From assembly GCA_028681035.1 (NCBI GenBank), contig JAQUJJ010000047.1, forward strand, positions 1-24,785: a stretch of DNA of 24,785 nucleotides, in the 5' to 3' direction. The stretch's first letter is position 1. Every line of letters begins with the position of its first letter. Shown here piece by piece: positions 1-21,355 of the stretch. The position numbers and the translations under genes are program-made. Source of the stretch: Candidatus Cloacimonadota bacterium. Lineage in GTDB: Bacteria > Cloacimonadota > Cloacimonadia > Cloacimonadales > Cloacimonadaceae. The notes beneath the pieces are model-generated. The model had not been told where the DNA came from. It did not search any database and saw only the letters and a program-made list of their open reading frames with translations.

Positions 1-346
1 TACCGGAGCTACAGGAAAATCCACTGGAGCTACAGGCGTCTTACACACAGGAGCTACAGGCGTCTTACACACAGGAGCTACAGGCGTCTTACACACAGGA
101 GCTACAGGCGTCTCGCCTGTACTGGTCTTAGCGGGCATCTTGCCTGCTTGCTTAATAACGTAAGCGGGACGCTTACTCCTCCAGTACAGACGAGACGTCT
201 GTAACTCCAATGTCGAGACGTCTGTAACTCCAATGACGAGACGTCTGTAACTCCAACGTCGAGACGTCTGTAACTCCAATGACGAGACGTCTGTAGCTCC
301 AATAACGAAACGTCTGTAACTCCAATAACGGAACGTCGCTAGCTCC
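1..346. repeat. REP family 1 (GGAG-headed) array, left block
   Basis: The block continues past the left window edge. From 1 to about 97, tandem half-units of 24 bp (one of 21 bp) start GGAGCTACAGGCGTC on the + strand. The core at 98-208 has four hairpins with 3-nt loops: TACAGGCG/TCT/CGCCTGTA (103-121, preceded by GGAG at 98-101), GCGGGCA/TCT/TGCCTGC (131-147), GTAAGCG/GGA/CGCTTAC (160-176) and TACAGACG/AGA/CGTCTGTA (185-203). From 196 to 346, 23-bp half-units run in the opposite orientation and end ACTCC, the complement of GGAGT. GGAG followed by a palindrome is the known layout of REP elements mobilised by RAYTs. Short ORFs across the array come from the repeat period and are not genes. Confidence 0.9.
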
Positions 347-411
347 AGTAAAAAATCCCTTTACAAATATAAGGCAGCTATATTCCTATCTCATTCATAA
401 TTATCTCCCTT

Positions 412-418
412 AAAGGAG
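412..418 (+). promoter_or_regulatory. Ribosome binding site of RAYT 1
   Basis: AAAGGAG lies 7 nt before the ATG at 426. It fixes the start and suggests the transposase is still translatable. Confidence 0.7.
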
Positions 419-425
419 CATCCTT

Positions 426-1073
426 ATGCCAGAAATAATCGAACAGCACCGCAGATTTCTGCCGCACTTTCAGGCAGCCGAGCAGATTATCTCTCTAACT
501 TGGCGATTGGCTTTTACCTTGCCCAGTCACCTTATAAATCTGCATGCAGAAATACAGGAACAACTGCAAGAATTGCGTCTGCAAAAAGACAGCCACCTAA
601 AGCACCAGCAAATTCTCACTTACACTAAAAAGATAGAAGATTACGATGCGCTGCTTGGCAGATGCGAAGTTTCAGAAGTATCTCTGTGTAAACCTATTAT
701 TGCCGAAATGCTCTGCACTGCTTTCAAGTTTTACGATACCAATCTCTATGAGCTTCATGCCTATTGCCTGATGCCCAATCACATCCACCTGCTTATCAAA
801 CCCCTGCAAAACACTGCTGGAGACTATCATAAACTCAGCACTATCGTGCAAAGGCTGAAAAGCTATACCGCCAAAGAGATAAACCACATCATCGGGAAAC
901 AAGGTAAAGTTTGGGGCGATGATTATTTCGATCGCTACATCCGCTGCCAAGATGATTACAACAATACCGCAAACTACATCCTCTATAATCCAGTGAAAGC
1001 AGGATTGGTAGAGCTTGCAGAAAACTGGCACTATTCTTATTATTACGATGCATCACTTTGGGAGGATTCATAG
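426..1073 (+). CDS. REP-associated tyrosine transposase (Y1/HUH, RAYT)
   Basis: This 215-residue protein belongs to the single-strand HUH transposase superfamily (Y1_Tnp, RAYT branch). RAYTs bind and cut REP hairpins through a 5'-phosphotyrosine. Visible features are the N-terminal TWRLAFTLP strand (25-33) typical of RAYTs, the metal-binding HUH motif MPNHIHLL (H119 and H121), FDRYIR (168-173), and the likely nucleophile Y184 in NYILYNPVKAGLV, a hallmark of the group. The middle section at about 40-80 is helical and charged. The start follows a good Shine-Dalgarno sequence. The gene has no operon partner and is flanked by GGAG-type REPs, its likely substrates by analogy with other RAYT loci. 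All catalytic residues look intact, so it may be active. It is unlike the second transposase in the window except for the HUH core. Confidence 0.9.
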   Translation: MPEIIEQHRRFLPHFQAAEQIISLTWRLAFTLPSHLINLHAEIQEQLQELRLQKDSHLKHQQILTYTKKIEDYDALLGRCEVSEVSLCKPIIAEMLCTAFKFYDTNLYELHAYCLMPNHIHLLIKPLQNTAGDYHKLSTIVQRLKSYTAKEINHIIGKQGKVWGDDYFDRYIRCQDDYNNTANYILYNPVKAGLVELAENWHYSYYYDASLWEDS

Positions 1074-1240
1074 TTTGGTGGGTGTTTAGTTTAGAGGGTG
1101 TATTGTTTGGCGAGTGTTTAGTTTAGTGGGTGTTTAGTTTAGAGGATGTTTAGTTGGTGAGTGTATTGTTTGGGGGGTGTTTAGTTTAGAGGATGTTTCG
1201 TTGGTGAGTGTTTAATTTAGTGGGTGTTTAGTTTAGAGGT
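1074..1240 (+). repeat. G/T-rich degenerate tandem array after RAYT 1
   Basis: Imperfect repeats of GTGGGTGTTTAGTTTAGAGG and shorter variants begin at the transposase stop codon. The + strand has almost no C for about 165 bp (an isolated C near 1107 and another near 1199) and many TAG/TTAG triplets. I see no coding potential. Confidence 0.8.
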
Positions 1241-1252
1241 ACCTTGCGTACC

Positions 1253-1598
1253 GGAGCTATAGGCGTCTCGCATACTGGAGCTACAGGTTTCTTACACACA
1301 GGAGCTACAGGCGTCTCGCATACCGGAGCTACAGGTTTCTTACACACAGGAGCTACAGGCGTCTCGCATACCGGAGCTACAGGAAAATCCACTGGAGCTA
1401 CAGGCGTCTTACACACAGGAGCTACAGGCGTCTTACACACAGGAGCTACAGGCGTCTCGCCTGTACTGGTTTAGCGGGCATCTTGCCTGCTTGTTAAATA
1501 ACGTAAGCGGGACGCTTACTCCTCCAGTACAGACGAGACGTCTGTAACTCCAATGTCGAGACGTCTGTAGCTCCAATGACAGAACGTCTGTAACTCCT
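1253..1598. repeat. REP family 1 array, right block
   Basis: This is a near copy of the left block in the same overall orientation. From 1369 it follows the sequence that begins at position 1, one 24-bp unit shorter and with a few changes. Forward 24-bp half-units (GGAG heads from 1253) lead to the four-hairpin core: 1447-1465, 1474-1490, 1503-1519 and 1528-1546. About two reversed half-units follow, to 1598. Variants such as GGAGCTACAGGTTTC alternate with GGAGCTACAGGCGTC, which suggests higher-order duplication of unit pairs. ORFs on both strands here (Gly-Ala-Thr-Gly repeats or Pro-Val-Ala-Pro repeats) stay open only because the period is 24 bp. Confidence 0.9.
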
Positions 1599-5103: not shown

Positions 5104-5852
5104 AAATTAAGCATTAAGATTTAAGCAGTTCGATTGATGGGTGCTTGGTTTAGCTTTGGAATATTTACTGAGTTGATGCTTACTTTTAACACAGAGAAAA
5201 GCAGAGGGTATTTTACAAAGAGGAAAAGAGGAAAAGAGGAAAAGAGAGATAAGGGTGCTTGGTTTAGTTTTGGACAATATACTAAGTTGATGCTTTCTTT
5301 CAACACAGAGAAAAGCAGAGAAAAGCAGAGGGTATTTTACAAAGAGTAAAAGAGTAAAAGAGTAAAAGAGTAAAAGAGTAAAAGAGTAAAAGAGTAAAAG
5401 AGTAAAAGAGTAAAAGAGGTAATGAGAGAATATTAATCGGTAAAACGTAGCTTGTCCATGATTGAAAGTAATGATACTGTGTATCCAGTTGTCCCAGTTA
5501 TCCACCTTCCATTCTCTCTTTGCCTCTTTTACTCTTTTACTCTTTGTAAAAATACTATCTCACCACTCCAGCAGCACCCGCCTTCCACTTTTTTTTCTCT
5601 CTTTTACCCTTTGTTAAAATATCCTCTTTCCCTCTTTCCCACTTTTTATATCCCCCTCTCTTTTCCCTCTTTTACTCTTTTACTCTTTGTTTAATCATGG
5701 TAAATCCAGTCGATCCAGTTATCTGCGTTCTATTGATTCTCTTTTCTCTGCTTTTCTCTGCTTTTCTCTGTGTTAAAATAGAAACTTAAAACCTGTATGT
5801 TGTTTAGCTTTAGCAAGACAGCTTATCGGTGATCTTACTCTTATCTTTAGCA
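5104..5852. repeat. Purine-rich repeats mirrored by pyrimidine-rich repeats
   Basis: No gene. A unit starting GGGTGCTTGGTTTAG and running through AACACAGAGAAAAGCAGAG to GGTATTTTACAAAGAG occurs at 5139-5230 and again from 5253. The second copy runs into nine perfect AGAGTAAA octamers (5343-5414). From about 5520 to 5776 the complements appear: repeated CTCTTTTA at 5522-5550 and 5666-5690, and CTCTGCTTTTCTCTG ending GTGTTAAAA (to about 5776). The whole is an imperfect inverted repeat of some 640 bp, with purines on the left arm and pyrimidines on the right. ATCCAGTT-containing segments (5482 and 5711) form a further short repeat. ORFs predicted on either strand are low-complexity artefacts. Confidence 0.85.
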
Positions 5853-10371: not shown

Positions 10372-12549
10372 ATGATACCCCAAAGCTATCGCAAGGAGCT
10401 GAACGAGCGTCAGTTGGAAGTGGTTACAGATACCGAAAGCCCCATTTTGGTGCTTGCTGGTGCTGGTTCGGGCAAAACCAAATCCATCATCTACCGAGCT
10501 GCTTATCTTATCAGAGAGTTACAAATCCCCCCCTGGAAACTACTGATAGTAACCTTCACCAATAAAGCTGCACGCGAGCTGCAAGAACGCCTGGAAAACC
10601 TGCTTAACATCCCCATGCGTACTCTGTGGGTGGGCACCTTTCATTCGCTATGCTCCCGCATCCTGCGTTTTGAAACTGCGCATCTGCCCTTCAATTCCAA
10701 TTACTCCATATACGATACCGATGCACAGAAATCCCTGCTTAAGAAACTGTATAAAGAACACGGTTTTGATGCGACGAAAATGCCGATTAACAAAGTATTA
10801 AACCGCATCGGGAGCTACAAAAATAAGCTCTTATTACCTGAAGAGCTAAAGGAATATGCCGAGGGCGAGGACAAAGAGTTTAACAGCTTTCTGAACATCT
10901 ACCGCCTATATCAACAGCAGCTTCTCTTAAACCAAGCCATGGATTTTGACGATATTCTGCTTTTTACTGCCAAGCTGCTGCAAAGCAACGATGCCGTACG
11001 CGAGAAATACCGCAGCCAGTTTCAATACGTGATGATAGACGAGTATCAGGACACAAACCAAGCGCAGTTTGAGATTATCCACCAGATAGCTTCTGGGCAT
11101 CAACGTGTTTGTGTGGTGGGAGATGATGACCAGGCTATTTACAGCTTCCGTGGGGCAACTTTGCGTAATATTCTGGAGTTCGAGCGCGATTATTCATCGG
11201 TACGCAGCATCCGCTTGGAGCAGAATTACCGTAGCACGGGCAACATCCTGGCGTTGGCGAATGCAGTGATTGTCCACAACCGCAGAAGGCATTCCAAAGA
11301 GCTGTGGAGCGATCTTCCAGAGGGCAATAAGCCTAAGCTGCAAACTTATGAGAACGAAAACCAAGAGGCAGAGAAAGTTACCAGAGCCGTACAGGAACTT
11401 GCCGACAAGGATATACCGCTAAAGCAAATTGCCATTCTATACCGCACTAATGCGCAGTCTCGTGTGTTCGAAAGTGCGCTGATGCAAGCCAAAATCCCAT
11501 ATAGCATTGTCGGTAGTTTGCACTTTTACCAACGCAAGGAGATTAAGGACTTGCTTGGCTATCTTGCCTGTCTGAATAATCCCGCCGATAACGAGAGCAT
11601 CCTGCGTATTATTAATGAGCCTCCCCGCGGCATAGGACAAACCACAGTGAACCGCATCATCAGTTTTGCCGCTAAAACCAGAATACCGATATACAATGCA
11701 GTGCAAAATGCGGATGCCATCGATGAACTTAACTCCTCTGCCAAGAAACGTGTATCAGAGTTTGCTGCACAGCTTGAAAGCTGGCGTATGACGGCAATAA
11801 AAAGCCCTGTGCTTGAGCTTGTGAAGGCAATTGTGGAAGAGCTGGGCTTGGTTGCGCTGTATCGCAAGAGTAGCGACCCTCGAGATATTGCCCGCGCCGA
11901 GAACTTGATAGAGTTTGTAAGCTCGGTGAGTGAATTTAGCGAACGTAGCCTCCGCGATGAGGAAAAACAGCCATTACTCGCAGACTTCCTGCCTTTTGTA
12001 GCTTTGCAGACGGATATGGACATGGTGAATGAAAGCACAGATTCCTTGCGTTTAATGACCCTGCATAATGCCAAGGGTTTGGAATTTGAGGCAGTCTTCA
12101 TCGTAGGCTTGGAAGATGAATTGCTCCCTCATCGCATGAGTATGGACAGCCGTGAAGAGATTGAAGAAGAGCGTCGTTTGTTCTATGTAGGCATCACCCG
12201 CGCCAAACGCCATCTTCACTTAAGCAATGCACGTTCTCGCAGAATATATGACACCTTTTATTTTGCCAAACCCAGCCAATTTATTGGTGAAGTTAACCCC
12301 CTGCTATTCGATCAACCGGGTGGCGAATTAGGCATTGCTCCTGCACCACGAGGAGCTAAGAAACCGCTGAAAAGCAGCCGAGAAAGCCAGAAACATTACC
12401 GTATCGGACAAAAAGTTTATCACAAAGAATACGGAGTGGGCACCGTCCTTAGTGTGGATGGAGAAGGAGCAGATGCACGCCTAACGATATCTTTCAGCGC
12501 AGGCAAGCTGGCAAAGATAATCGGTAGTTTTGTACAGACAGAGCCGTGA
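10372..12549 (+). CDS. ATP-dependent DNA helicase UvrD/PcrA
   Basis: A 725-residue SF1A 3'-5' helicase for nucleotide excision and mismatch repair and for clearing protein from DNA. It has the Q motif NERQ (Q14), Walker A AGAGSGKT (29-36), Walker B DEYQD (223-227), motif III VVGDDDQAIYSFRGA, motif IV QNYRST, motif V LMTLHNAKGLEF and motif VI YVGITRAKRH. The C-terminus (about 676-725) is the small Tudor-like module of PcrA/UvrD (IGQKVYHKEYGVGTV), which contacts RNA polymerase in studied homologues. Length is normal. The start is 3 nt after the FN3 lipoprotein stop with no clear ribosome binding site, so coupling is likely. It is an odd functional partner for the envelope genes. A 16-bp repeat array begins at its stop codon. 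Confidence 0.95.
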   Translation: MIPQSYRKELNERQLEVVTDTESPILVLAGAGSGKTKSIIYRAAYLIRELQIPPWKLLIVTFTNKAARELQERLENLLNIPMRTLWVGTFHSLCSRILRFETAHLPFNSNYSIYDTDAQKSLLKKLYKEHGFDATKMPINKVLNRIGSYKNKLLLPEELKEYAEGEDKEFNSFLNIYRLYQQQLLLNQAMDFDDILLFTAKLLQSNDAVREKYRSQFQYVMIDEYQDTNQAQFEIIHQIASGHQRVCVVGDDDQAIYSFRGATLRNILEFERDYSSVRSIRLEQNYRSTGNILALANAVIVHNRRRHSKELWSDLPEGNKPKLQTYENENQEAEKVTRAVQELADKDIPLKQIAILYRTNAQSRVFESALMQAKIPYSIVGSLHFYQRKEIKDLLGYLACLNNPADNESILRIINEPPRGIGQTTVNRIISFAAKTRIPIYNAVQNADAIDELNSSAKKRVSEFAAQLESWRMTAIKSPVLELVKAIVEELGLVALYRKSSDPRDIARAENLIEFVSSVSEFSERSLRDEEKQPLLADFLPFVALQTDMDMVNESTDSLRLMTLHNAKGLEFEAVFIVGLEDELLPHRMSMDSREEIEEERRLFYVGITRAKRHLHLSNARSRRIYDTFYFAKPSQFIGEVNPLLFDQPGGELGIAPAPRGAKKPLKSSRESQKHYRIGQKVYHKEYGVGTVLSVDGEGADARLTISFSAGKLAKIIGSFVQTEP

Positions 12550-12602
12550 TGAAGTAACAGAGTGATGAAGTAACAAAGTGATGAAGTGATAAAGTTACAA
12601 AG
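12548..12602 (+). repeat. 16-bp tandem repeat at the uvrD stop codon
   Basis: Three to four copies of GATGAAGTAACAAAGT and variants. The first overlaps the uvrD TGA. The units carry TGA and TAA triplets in more than one frame. The same units recur at 13308-13376, 13456-13495 and 13569-13606, each time just before a family 2 REP pair. Confidence 0.85.
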
Positions 12603-12613
12603 AATTCAAACAC

Positions 12614-12711
12614 CTTCATGTACACCTCGTAGAGGTGAAACCACTGTAGCACGGTGCGTAAGCGCCGTGACACAATGCCGAAAACAAAACCAGCCTCGTA
12701 GAGGCGACACC
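12614..12711 (+). repeat. REP family 2 (GTAG-headed) doublet, upstream of RAYT 2
   Basis: Three hairpins in order: ACCTC/GTA/GAGGT (12624-12636), GTAG followed by CACGGTGC/GTAA/GCGCCGTG (12646-12669, an 8-bp stem with one G-T pair and a GTAA tetraloop), and GCCTC/GTA/GAGGC (12692-12704). GTAG plus a palindrome is a canonical REP layout. Confidence 0.9.
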
Positions 12712-12718
12712 AACATAC

Positions 12719-12723
12719 AGGAG
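12719..12723 (+). promoter_or_regulatory. Ribosome binding site of RAYT 2
   Basis: AGGAG, 7 nt before the ATG at 12731 and only 7 bp after the last REP hairpin. REP folding or REP binding by the transposase could therefore affect its own translation. Confidence 0.65.
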
Positions 12724-12730
12724 CAAGTTT

Positions 12731-13195
12731 ATGGCAAACGCATATTCAAAGTTATATGTTCATATCGTGTTTACCCCAAGAGGGCGAATTCGGATAACAA
12801 ATCTTGATCTTCGCATTTTAATTGAGAAGTACATCTATGGTATATTGGATAATCTTAAATGCCATGTTCTTGCCATGAAATGTATGCCAGATCACATTCA
12901 TATTCTTACAAGCATTCACCCAGACCGTTCAGTCAGCGAAATAGTAAGAACCATCAAAGCCAATTCATCCAAGCACTTAAATGAAATCAAGGCGTTTCCT
13001 GGGATGTTTCATTGGCAGCAAGGTTATGGAGCATTTTCCTATTCCCAAAGTTCTATCCCCAATGTTGTACATTATATTAACAATCAGGAAGAGCACCATC
13101 AGCGTATGAGTTTTGAAGACGAATATAAAAGCTTCTTAGAATCCTTCCAGATTGACTATAATCCAGCGTATTTGTTTGATAAGGAACCCGATTGA
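12731..13195 (+). CDS. IS200/RAYT-like Y1 (HUH) transposase
   Basis: The 154-residue protein has the IS200/IS605 TnpA fold (Y1_Tnp). It starts MANAYSKLYVHIVFTPR, the usual first strand. The HUH motif is MPDHIHIL with H55 and H57, the likely nucleophile is Y115 in VVHYINNQEEHH, and WQQGYGAFSYS (95-105) is the conserved segment between them. It is complete for an IS200-type TnpA (about 150 residues) and all key residues are present. It cuts and rejoins single-stranded DNA at hairpin-marked ends. No typical IS200 ends are seen. Instead it is bracketed by GTAG-headed REPs in mirror orientation, so it is best viewed as a RAYT-like domesticated or REP-mobilising enzyme. It is only distantly related to the 215-residue transposase at 426. 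Confidence 0.9.
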   Translation: MANAYSKLYVHIVFTPRGRIRITNLDLRILIEKYIYGILDNLKCHVLAMKCMPDHIHILTSIHPDRSVSEIVRTIKANSSKHLNEIKAFPGMFHWQQGYGAFSYSQSSIPNVVHYINNQEEHHQRMSFEDEYKSFLESFQIDYNPAYLFDKEPD

Positions 13196-13209
13196 TTGGG
13201 TGAATAGTG

Positions 13210-13302
13210 GGTGTCGCCTCTACGAGGCTGTTAATATCGTTTCCTTCTTTTCACGGCGCTTACGCACCGTGCTACATTGGTTTAGCCTCTACGAGGCAAT
13301 TG
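13210..13302 (-). repeat. REP family 2 doublet, inverted copy downstream of RAYT 2
   Basis: Reverse complement of the upstream block: 13210-13230 is a perfect 21-bp inverted match of 12691-12711, and 13252-13275 is a perfect 24-bp inverted match of 12646-12669. A further CCTC/TAC/GAGG hairpin lies at 13292-13302. The two blocks form terminal inverted repeats about 480-650 bp apart around the transposase. Confidence 0.9.
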
Positions 13303-13307
13303 AAAGT

Positions 13308-13728
13308 GATGAAGTAACAAAGTGATGAAGTAACAGAGTGATGAAGTAACAGAGTGATGAAGTGATAAAGTTACAAAGAAATCAATTATCTTCATGTACA
13401 CCTCGTAGAGGTGAAACCAATGTAGCACGGTGCGTAAGCGCCGTGACATAGTTTCAAAGTAATAAAGTAACATCGTGATAAAGTAACAAAGAAATCAATT
13501 ATCTTCATGTACACCTCGTAGAGGTGAAACCAATGTAGCACGGTGCGTAAGCGCCGTGACATAGTTTCAAAGTGATAAAGTAACAAAGTGATGAAGTTAC
13601 AAAGAATTCAAACACCTTCATGTACACCTCGTAGAGGTGAAACCAATGTAGCACGGTGCGTAAGCGCCGTGACACAGTTCCGAAAAGAAACCAGCCTCGT
13701 AGAGGCGAAACCATGCTTAATGATTACT
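13308..13728 (+). repeat. REP family 2 tandem array, 113-bp period
   Basis: After 16-bp units (13308-13376), three copies of a 113-bp unit begin at 13390, 13503 and 13616. Each has CTTCATGTACACCTCGTAGAGG, then GTAG plus the palindrome (13422-13445, 13535-13558, 13648-13671), then 16-bp-type spacer repeats. The third copy ends like the block upstream of the transposase, with GCCTCGTAGAGGC at about 13694. Minus-strand ORFs over this array are repeat artefacts. Confidence 0.9.
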
Positions 13729-13822: not shown

Positions 13823-13916
13823 TCCTTGCAAGCATTGCCCTATCATTGCCCACTCAATGCCCATATGGAGGGCAATGGGTGGGCAATGATAGGGAGATAA
13901 AAGCAAGGAAGATGCT
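13823..13916. repeat. MITE-like palindromic element, copy 1
   Basis: A 25-bp stem (13838-13862 with 13870-13894; one G-T pair and one mismatch) around a 7-nt loop, built from ATTGCCC and CCCTATCATTGCCC motifs. An outer arm TCCTTGC (13823-13829) pairs with GCAAGGA (13903-13909), and GCAAGGAAGATGCT (13903-13916) is the exact complement of 20831-20844 in the second copy. It lies 51 bp before mfd. Confidence 0.85.
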
Positions 13917-20830: not shown

Positions 20831-20911
20831 AGCATCTTCCTTGCAAGCATTGTCCTATCAATGCCCTATCATTGCCCTCCACATGGACATTGAATGGGCA
20901 ATGATAGGGCA
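20831..20911. repeat. MITE-like palindromic element, copy 2
   Basis: AGCATCTTCCTTGCAAGCAT (20831-20850) followed by a perfect 16-bp stem TGCCCTATCATTGCCC (20862-20877) with its complement at 20896-20911, and an 18-nt loop. It shares the 15-mer TCCTTGCAAGCATTG with copy 1 (13823). The right outer arm is missing here, whereas copy 1 keeps it. Confidence 0.85.
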
Positions 20912-21355
20912 GTTGGAGCAAAGTATGAAATGATAGATAATAATGTTTTTACTCACAATTACGCTGCGAAAATGGTGAAACGACTCCACACTTACATAGT
21001 AATAACAATCGCCCCCGACTGTTTATCTAGTGTCTTGTCAAGCATAGGGTGGCAAACTCAGATTTGCCACAGATTGGAGGAATGCTTAGATGAGAGCCTC
21101 GCTGTTACTGCCAATTCGGAGATGGTAGCAGACAAGATACCTGCAAACCTGTACAGGCGAGACGCCTATACCTCCTGCTACCCGGAGATACAGGCGTCCC
21201 GCTTGTTCAAGACCCTTAAATGTATGTAGCGTCACTTTATGCTTGATGCCACACTAGGAAAATTCACACGAGGCGTGTGAAATTACAACTCGGCAAACTA
21301 ACAGCATGGTGCGTAAGAAATTACGGCTCCACAGACAGGCTGGATAAGATTTTAC
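20912..21355. repeat. Degenerate REP relics in the intergenic region before ribH
   Basis: No credible gene; a 111-codon frame at 20894-21229 runs through repeats and has no ribosome binding site. Relics seen: an isolated hairpin GTGGCAAA/CTCAGA/TTTGCCAC (21049-21070), a reversed family 1 REP TACAGGCG/AGA/CGCCTATA then CCTCC (21152-21175), a forward half REP with GGAG at 21184 and TACAGGCG at 21189, a hairpin TTCACAC/GAGGC/GTGTGAA (21263-21281), and a family 2 relic AGCATGGTGCGTAAG (21303-21317, 14 of 15 matches). Confidence 0.7.

Follow-up and report, generated by a model that had tools for sequence, protein, structure and literature searches.

The window analyzed here, which is the whole stretch of 24,785 nucleotides, carries near its start a gene encoding a REP-associated tyrosine transposase (RAYT), bracketed by two near-identical repeat blocks in direct orientation (1–255 and 1369–1598). 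The earlier note on this DNA had described these blocks around an HUH transposase, and the description holds, with 225 identical positions in the alignment of the blocks and an intact open reading frame between them. Block 1 contains one additional 24-nt unit in comparison with block 2, and the window starts inside the repeat, with the left edge of block 1 lying beyond it. The coordinates of the features are collected in Table 1.

The predicted protein scores 89.9 bits with the model NF047646 (REP-associated tyrosine transposase), for which the cut-off is 80. Its HUH motif is H119-I-H121, and the equivalent of the catalytic tyrosine, by alignment, is Y178; the residues H119, H121, and Y178 are invariant in 30 aligned rows. 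In the alignment with the TnpAREP of E. coli, the guide-loop residues Y167 and R170 correspond to positions 98 and 101 of that enzyme. The AlphaFold2 model has a pLDDT of 88, and its best match in the PDB is 4er8, the TnpAREP–REP complex (E 9.4e-8, TM 0.47/0.60). The locus does not qualify as an IS200/IS605 insertion sequence, given that NF033573 returns 21.3 bits against a cut-off of 55, and that the gene occupies an orthologous locus in the related genome G005. Its closest relative with an organism name is P0003, of Candidatus Cloacimonetes bacterium HGW-Cloacimonetes-3 (68%), and RAYT matches are found in 84 of the 124 genomes of the phylum.

Table 1. Position and strand of the RAYT gene and of the repeats that accompany it in the window.
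Feature	Position	Strand	Details
Tandem half-REPs	22–113	+	24-nt units GGAG-CT-ACAGGCG-TCT-TACACACA; TRF, 3.8 copies, 98% matches
Outer REP, composite 1	98–125	+	GGAG guide, short spacer, 7–8 bp stem, TCT loop, ACTGG tail
Inner hairpin A, composite 1	130–148	+	Pyrimidine loop, strand as left outer REP; counterpart in G005
Inner hairpin B, composite 1	160–176	-	Pyrimidine loop on minus strand; counterpart GTAGTCGTGACGACTAC in G005
Inverted outer REP, composite 1	181–208	-	GGAG-TT-ACAGACG-TCT-CGTCTGT-ACTGG
Inverted half-REP tandem array	189–337	-	23-nt units; TRF, 6.5 copies, 91% matches
RAYT	426–1073	+	215 aa
Half-REP tandem array preceding composite 2	1253–1457	+	24-nt units, partly 48-nt dimers
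Outer REP, composite 2	1442–1469	+	
Inner hairpin A, composite 2	1473–1489	+	
Inner hairpin B, composite 2	1503–1519	-	From sequence
Inverted outer REP, composite 2	1524–1551	-	
Inverted half-REP tandem array following composite 2	1532–1597	-	
Outer-type REP, distant pair	21148–21175	-	GGAG-GT-ATAGGCG-TCT-CGCCTGT; 3 substitutions from pattern
Second outer-type REP, distant pair	21184–21211	+	GGAG-AT-ACAGGCG-TCC-CGCTTGT; 4 substitutions, degenerate tail

Each block is a REPIN-like composite, formed by an outer REP headed by GGAG, the inner hairpins A and B, and an inverted outer REP, in which the outer REP has the form GGAG-NT-RCANRCG-TCY-CGYNTGY-ACTGG. The four consecutive hairpins of 7–8 bp that had been noticed previously are confirmed: each folds alone (8, 8, 7, and 8 bp in composite 1), and in no case did any of 200 shuffled sequences fold as well. 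Their loops read TCT, TCT, GGA, and AGA, which implies that two plus-strand hairpins are followed by two minus-strand ones. The core as a whole (98–208) has a folding z of -8.3, equaled by none of 200 shuffles, and its minimum-energy fold is one long stem between the two outer REPs, enclosing the two inner hairpins, rather than four hairpins side by side. As in REPINs, the inverted REPs are able to pair and are dispersed as a unit, at low copy number, as observed in G005.

The stem of the outer REP has changed on both sides at four of its seven pairs, and only two of the 91 cells are unpaired in 13 distinct outer REPs from two species, a count which omits the second outer REP of the composites on contigs C27 and C28 of G005, given that these fall outside the 28-nt register (by eye, through a stem mismatch or longer loop). 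This covariation supports a conserved hairpin. As a means of discriminating single hairpins from a long duplex, the pairing data provided no clear separation, the local and long-range pairs being kept about equally; in the composite with the most divergent outer REPs, on C13 of G005, the failures amount to 1/14 of the local stem pairs and 3/28 of the long-range pairs.

Both cores are accompanied by tandem arrays of half-REPs, absent from the earlier note, with 24-nt units on the left and inverted 23-nt units on the right. The first of the left arrays may extend past the start of the contig. Most of the units terminate at TCT, the exception being one unit per block, GGAGCTACAGGAAAATCCACT. The other half of the stem is missing from the half-REPs, which leaves the array across the core as their only pairing partner, and the two arrays together form one large imperfect hairpin. 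The position of most of the unit junctions at the TCT site means that such arrays could be created by the strand joining of the RAYT or by slippage, and they are consistent with joins between C and T or, equally, with slippage at the shared GTCT. A third pair of outer REPs, more degenerate than the others, lies 20 kb from the RAYT, where a degenerate hairpin A (21129–21145, by eye) adjoins the first of its members.

The window also contains repeats of other kinds. Intergenic tandem arrays of unrelated sequence, with a period of 8 or 16 nt, as opposed to the 24 or 23 nt of the half-REP arrays, are found at 1071–1239, 1830–1930, 5219–5430, and 12546–13604. A further palindromic repeat, CATTGCCC...GGGCAATG, at 13823–13907 and 20832–20920, matches four places on contig C15 of G005. 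A second Y1 transposase (12731–13195), which scores above the cut-off of the IS200 model, lies inside 12546–13713, surrounded by repeated imperfect palindromes headed by GTAG, GTAGCACGGTGCGTAAGCGCCGTGAC (by eye), and CCTCGTAGAGG hairpins. The junction between PcrA and Mfd spans approximately 0.3 kb in G005 and 1.26 kb in the window, and positions 1–100,000 of C15 contain no match to this second Y1 gene.

The window is collinear with C15 of the relative G005 (1–100,000 compared), except that SNF2 and RibH lie approximately 17 kb further apart in G005, and the neighboring proteins are 96% (GT4), 93% (Mfd), 91% (SPASM), 90% (PcrA), and 89% (SNF2) identical. The RAYT of G005 occupies the orthologous position, with the same genes for secreted proteins downstream of it, and is 69.6% identical to that of the window. 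An unusually fast evolution of the RAYT finds no support, as this value falls within the 42–96% of its neighbors. In G005, the gene is flanked on both sides by REPs of another sequence, GGAA-CT-GCAGACG, with GCAGACG stems and TGC or TGT loops, in comparison with the ACAGGCG or ACAGACG stems and TCT loops in the window. The order of outer REP, A, B, and outer REP is retained between the two species, and the A–B orientation relative to the RAYT is opposite, which indicates that the flanking copies were not simply inherited. In each species, the gene has kept its place while the repeats to its left and right were replaced in parallel, which suggests, from these two species, the coevolution of the RAYT and its REPs, with local homogenization.

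Beyond the locus, the window has the one degenerate distant pair; copies are scattered through G005, and GGA-headed REPs of other kinds through further relatives. Composites with the order of parts found in the window were recognized on C15, C27, C28, and C13 of G005, and partial ones on C6, C9, and C11, in a reading of 20 stretches that covered approximately 0.37 of its 2.7 Mb. With up to two mismatches, the pattern of the outer 28-nt REP occurs at nine places in G005, three at the RAYT and six on other contigs, and in no other of the 124 genomes of the phylum, while the reversed-pattern control returned none. This copy number is low in comparison with the 37–427 perfect copies of the Stenotrophomonas cases (PMC2817692). 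A DNA search of the 124 genomes with the core returned two weak places, both in G005, and a search of viral contigs for a 22-base piece of the core found no exact match. The earlier note had named wide occurrence in genomes without this RAYT, or confinement to this locus, as findings that would count against a cassette; for the outer REP, neither was encountered.

Several relatives have numerous GGA-headed REPs of other kinds. Genome G011, for example, whose RAYT has an identity of 46%, has 140 copies of the kind GGAA-NN-RCCGACG-TCCY, G024 (54%) has 35 copies of GGAR-NN-RCARACG, and G001 (RAYTs of 43–49%) has 41 copies of GGAT-TGCARGCG-TCT. These kinds are found in three, nine, and six of the 124 genomes, respectively, and are not strictly private. 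All 29 heads classified in G024 are GGAG, a figure biased by the selection of stretches with a pattern containing GGAR, and 63 of 66 palindromes in G011 carry GGAA or GGAG, only the second REP class (29/31) being free of such selection. GGA-headed REPs also occur in G032 (21), G041 (12), and G038 (11), bins in which no RAYT was found, an observation that counts against a strict link between the two. RAYTs lie inside repeats that break assemblies, and the loss of a contig is thus possible in these bins, as is a real loss of the gene. Among the places listed for G001, CAGGCG surrounds the RAYT on C57 and CAGTCG that on C89; these two RAYTs of a single genome (loci L082 and L081) each have their own surrounding REP variant. 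In a search of the Acidobacteria, a RAYT (locus L344, genome G376) was found to be flanked by GGAGC-GCAGGCG-TCT-CGCCTGC-ACTGG, which is nearly the outer REP of the window, including the ACTGG tail.

The relationship between the guide and the protein was evaluated at 176 RAYT loci from several phyla, retained from 213 after the removal of identical proteins and those below 80 bits, with near-duplicates being kept. Each locus was labeled by the first two head bases of the flanking hairpins, in a scan of all 16 dinucleotide starts which superseded earlier head scans (one of four fixed tetranucleotides, and one open to any tetramer, in which the registers were mixed). Loci with two or more hairpins numbered 73 for GT, 48 for GG, 44 for AA, and 40 for TT, and the hairpin totals were 348 for GT, 219 for GG, and 201 for TT, so that GG is narrowly ahead of the background by the count of loci with at least two hairpins. 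The labels were restricted to GT and GG afterwards. This classified 97 loci (61 GT and 36 GG, with 79 unclear), 32 of them on the basis of just two hairpins, in comparison with 31 of the 176 (19 GT, 12 GG, and 145 unclear) in the reversed-flank control, which has no visible link with the residues.

In E. coli numbering, 33 of the 36 GG loci have R101 without S98, two have R101 with S98, and one has H101, while the 61 GT loci comprise 53 with H101, seven with R101 and S98, and one with Y101. A rule by which R101 without S98 denotes GGA, and H101 or S98 denotes the GT type, thus fits 94 of the 97 loci (the exceptions being L331, L342, and L048), although the clause on Ser98 was introduced after the residue table had been viewed. 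This rule holds for 46 of the 48 loci fetched later and for 29 of the 30 earlier loci outside the 27 first compared. R101 alone fits 89/97, and 46/48 among the loci fetched after the first look. Two close relatives remained unlabeled, L085 (GT 3, GG 5) and L088 (GT 7, GG 10, with a GTGGAT head that reads both ways), and their heads are GGAA and GGAT by eye.

The association may nevertheless reflect shared ancestry only, with one old RAYT clade having inherited both the GGA guide and R101, an explanation that is given somewhat less than an even chance. Loci of like label group together on the tree, the AU test does not reject a single GGA clade (p 0.122), three columns outside the guide loop are more informative about the guide class than column 101, and many columns are more informative than column 98. 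Against this, the trees built without the motif columns require 4–5 changes of guide class, 2–3 of which are forced by well-supported branches; in the resolvable independent pairs, which are fewer than the six that a sign test would need for significance, the residues change with the guide class and never against it; and the residues of the E. coli TnpAREP that interact with the guide (W94, Q95, E100, H101, and R104) include H101, which is sometimes R in two subclasses, according to the part of PMC6006769 available here. The first tree omits L048, which is AT-rich and probably spurious, and the AU-test tree omits L048, L342, L288, L078, and every locus below three hairpins. The link between residue and guide is thus a strong lead, rather than a proven cause. 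It is tentatively proposed that the guides of REPtrons may be written in two or more alphabets, GT[AG][AG] and GGA[AGT] among them, and read through a guide-loop switch at positions 98 and 101, with Ser/His for the former and aromatic/Arg for the latter. This switch might have arisen repeatedly, one of the occasions being in the Cloacimonadota clade to which the window belongs, with the REPs re-addressed each time, and the half-REP arrays as footprints of strand joining between C and T.

The locus is best interpreted as a REPtron, in which a RAYT keeps a fixed place in the chromosome and is accompanied by copies of its own repeat. The 28-nt outer REP is the most likely unit of recognition, and the composites are REPIN-like, a reading with a probability of roughly 0.8. 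The computed results behind it are the family of the gene, the architecture of the repeats, the covariation of the stem, the dispersal seen in the relative, the orthologous locus, and the relationship of guide class to residue. The RAYT gene is flanked by its own REPs in both the window and G005, and the outer REPs of the window bear GGAG in place of the GTAG or GTGG guide of REPtrons. The suggestion that the locus is a RAYT–REP cassette in an uncultured phylum has gained support from the NF047646 score, the dispersal of outer REPs in G005, and the stem covariation. GGAG constitutes a variant guide class, with a testable recognition code, and this departure from the standard GTAG appears to be matched by altered residues in the region of the protein that is predicted to recognize the guide.

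The mechanism can be outlined by analogy with the TnpAREP of E. coli, which binds a folded single strand, checks the guide, and nicks at a nearby site between C and T (as set out in the part of PMC8266576 available here). The substrate would be the single-stranded 28-nt outer REP, consisting of GGAG, one or two bases, and a hairpin of 7–8 bp whose loop is TCY. This folded hairpin would be bound by the RAYT, the loop holding Y167 and R170 would read the guide, and Y178 would nick nearby, as the E. coli enzyme does. Two inverted outer REPs, together with the inner pair of hairpins, form the composite, which may be mobilized to spread at low copy number, and which brackets the RAYT gene. Between the two species, the RAYT and its REPs differ jointly. 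The tandem half-REPs would be by-products, either of RAYT strand joining or of plain slippage.

Hairpin A bears on the earlier suggestion that the whole four-hairpin core, as one folded unit, may be the substrate. With up to three mismatches, its pattern is found in nine of the 124 genomes, including ten places in G051, which has no RAYT match, and has no match in G024, G011, or G001, whose RAYTs have GGA hairpins alongside. Hairpin A is thus less specific than the outer REP. In G051, the hairpin-A-like repeats lie on contigs C121, C247, and C150, several being clustered near the contig ends. The A–B spacer also varies, from 13 nt in the window to 30–128 nt in four G005 copies, and the pairing data do not decide the matter. 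The core fold is very stable, however, the order of its parts is shared with G005, and other hairpins alternate with the GGA hairpins in G001 and beside the second RAYT of G024, which means that composites may be the usual arrangement. The suggestion is therefore weakened, and a whole-core substrate is considered unlikely, while the outer 28-nt REP is probably the unit recognized.

The blocks might also be transcription terminators or mRNA-end structures, with the proximity of the RAYT being incidental, given that they are intergenic, inverted, and stable, and that such roles of REPs are listed in the part of PMC6006769 available here. This explanation is very improbable, as the GGA head is conserved and strand-specific, the REPs change to match the neighboring RAYT across genomes, and classifiable heads are more frequent beside RAYTs than in the reversed flanks. 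The movement of the RAYT and two direct composites as one compound element, suggested by the near-identical direct copies in the window and by one complete and one partial flanking copy in G005 (with 142 identities among the 177 positions aligned where the two overlap), has hardly any likelihood, and was set aside on the synteny with G005, where the RAYT has the orthologous position with the same neighbors on the readable side, and where, of the five RAYT-like matches, the others listed have 31–35% identity.

The GGAG head, which the earlier note took as known, finds no support in the sources available, which describe mainly GTAG and GTGG heads, besides degenerate variants of GTAG in some cases and, in class 3, a CnGA foot; the main texts of PMC2817692, PMC3733652, PMC6006769, and PMC3686654 contain no word-start match to GGAG. 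In the available part of PMC6006769, the 66 known REP families used include GTAG or GTGG, with four breaking the rules, and the search pipeline accepts only GTAG and GTGG heads, by which a GGA-headed class would be missed. Among the main texts of openly available papers, a literature search for RAYT, guide sequence, and palindrome recovered PMC6006769 only, and no paper was found that linked RAYT or REP terms to Cloacimonetes or Cloacimonas acidaminovorans, or REP sequences to both TnpAREP and GGAG; the GGA guide class may already be in print elsewhere. The link between residues and guide offers a simple test of site choice by a single-strand-DNA nuclease, involving two residues and two bases, and the orthologous locus, with a differing RAYT and REPs in two species, provides a natural pair for a test of specificity.

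One of the closest known systems is the REPtron of E. coli (TnpAREP/RayT, 4er8, with BIMEs of REP y, z1, and z2), with which the locus shares an HUH/Y1 enzyme related in both sequence and fold, the location of its gene amid REPs, the pairing of REPs in inverted orientation, and a tetranucleotide 5' of the hairpin. It differs in the GGAG guide in place of GTAG, in a perfect stem of 7–8 bp with no bulge, in an N-terminal portion that is longer by approximately 60 residues, mostly helical, ahead of the HUH motif, and in a guide loop with Y/R rather than F98/H101. The Group 3 or subclass 2.5 REPtrons of Stenotrophomonas and Marinomonas (Mb) also have short perfect palindromes, loops of 3–4 nt, and a guide 0–2 nt from the stem, although their guide is GT[AG]G, and tandem half-REPs are not described for them in the available parts of PMC8266576 and PMC6006769. 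In REPINs, as presented in the part of PMC3116915 available, two inverted REPs likewise form a larger hairpin, whereas the halves of the composites in the window each add an inner hairpin and extend outward by half-REP arrays. The double inverted repeats that flank RAYTs in P. putida and P. fluorescens (degenerate GTAG-1 and unrelated stem-loops), and the TIRtrons, similarly combine a REP unit with another stem-loop, flank the RAYT, and are dispersed, but the TIRs there are derived from GTAG or unrelated to REPs, according to the available part of PMC3733652, in contrast with the GGA-headed REPs of the window. Some of the Acidobacterial "TIRYTs" of the same source could belong to the GGA class.
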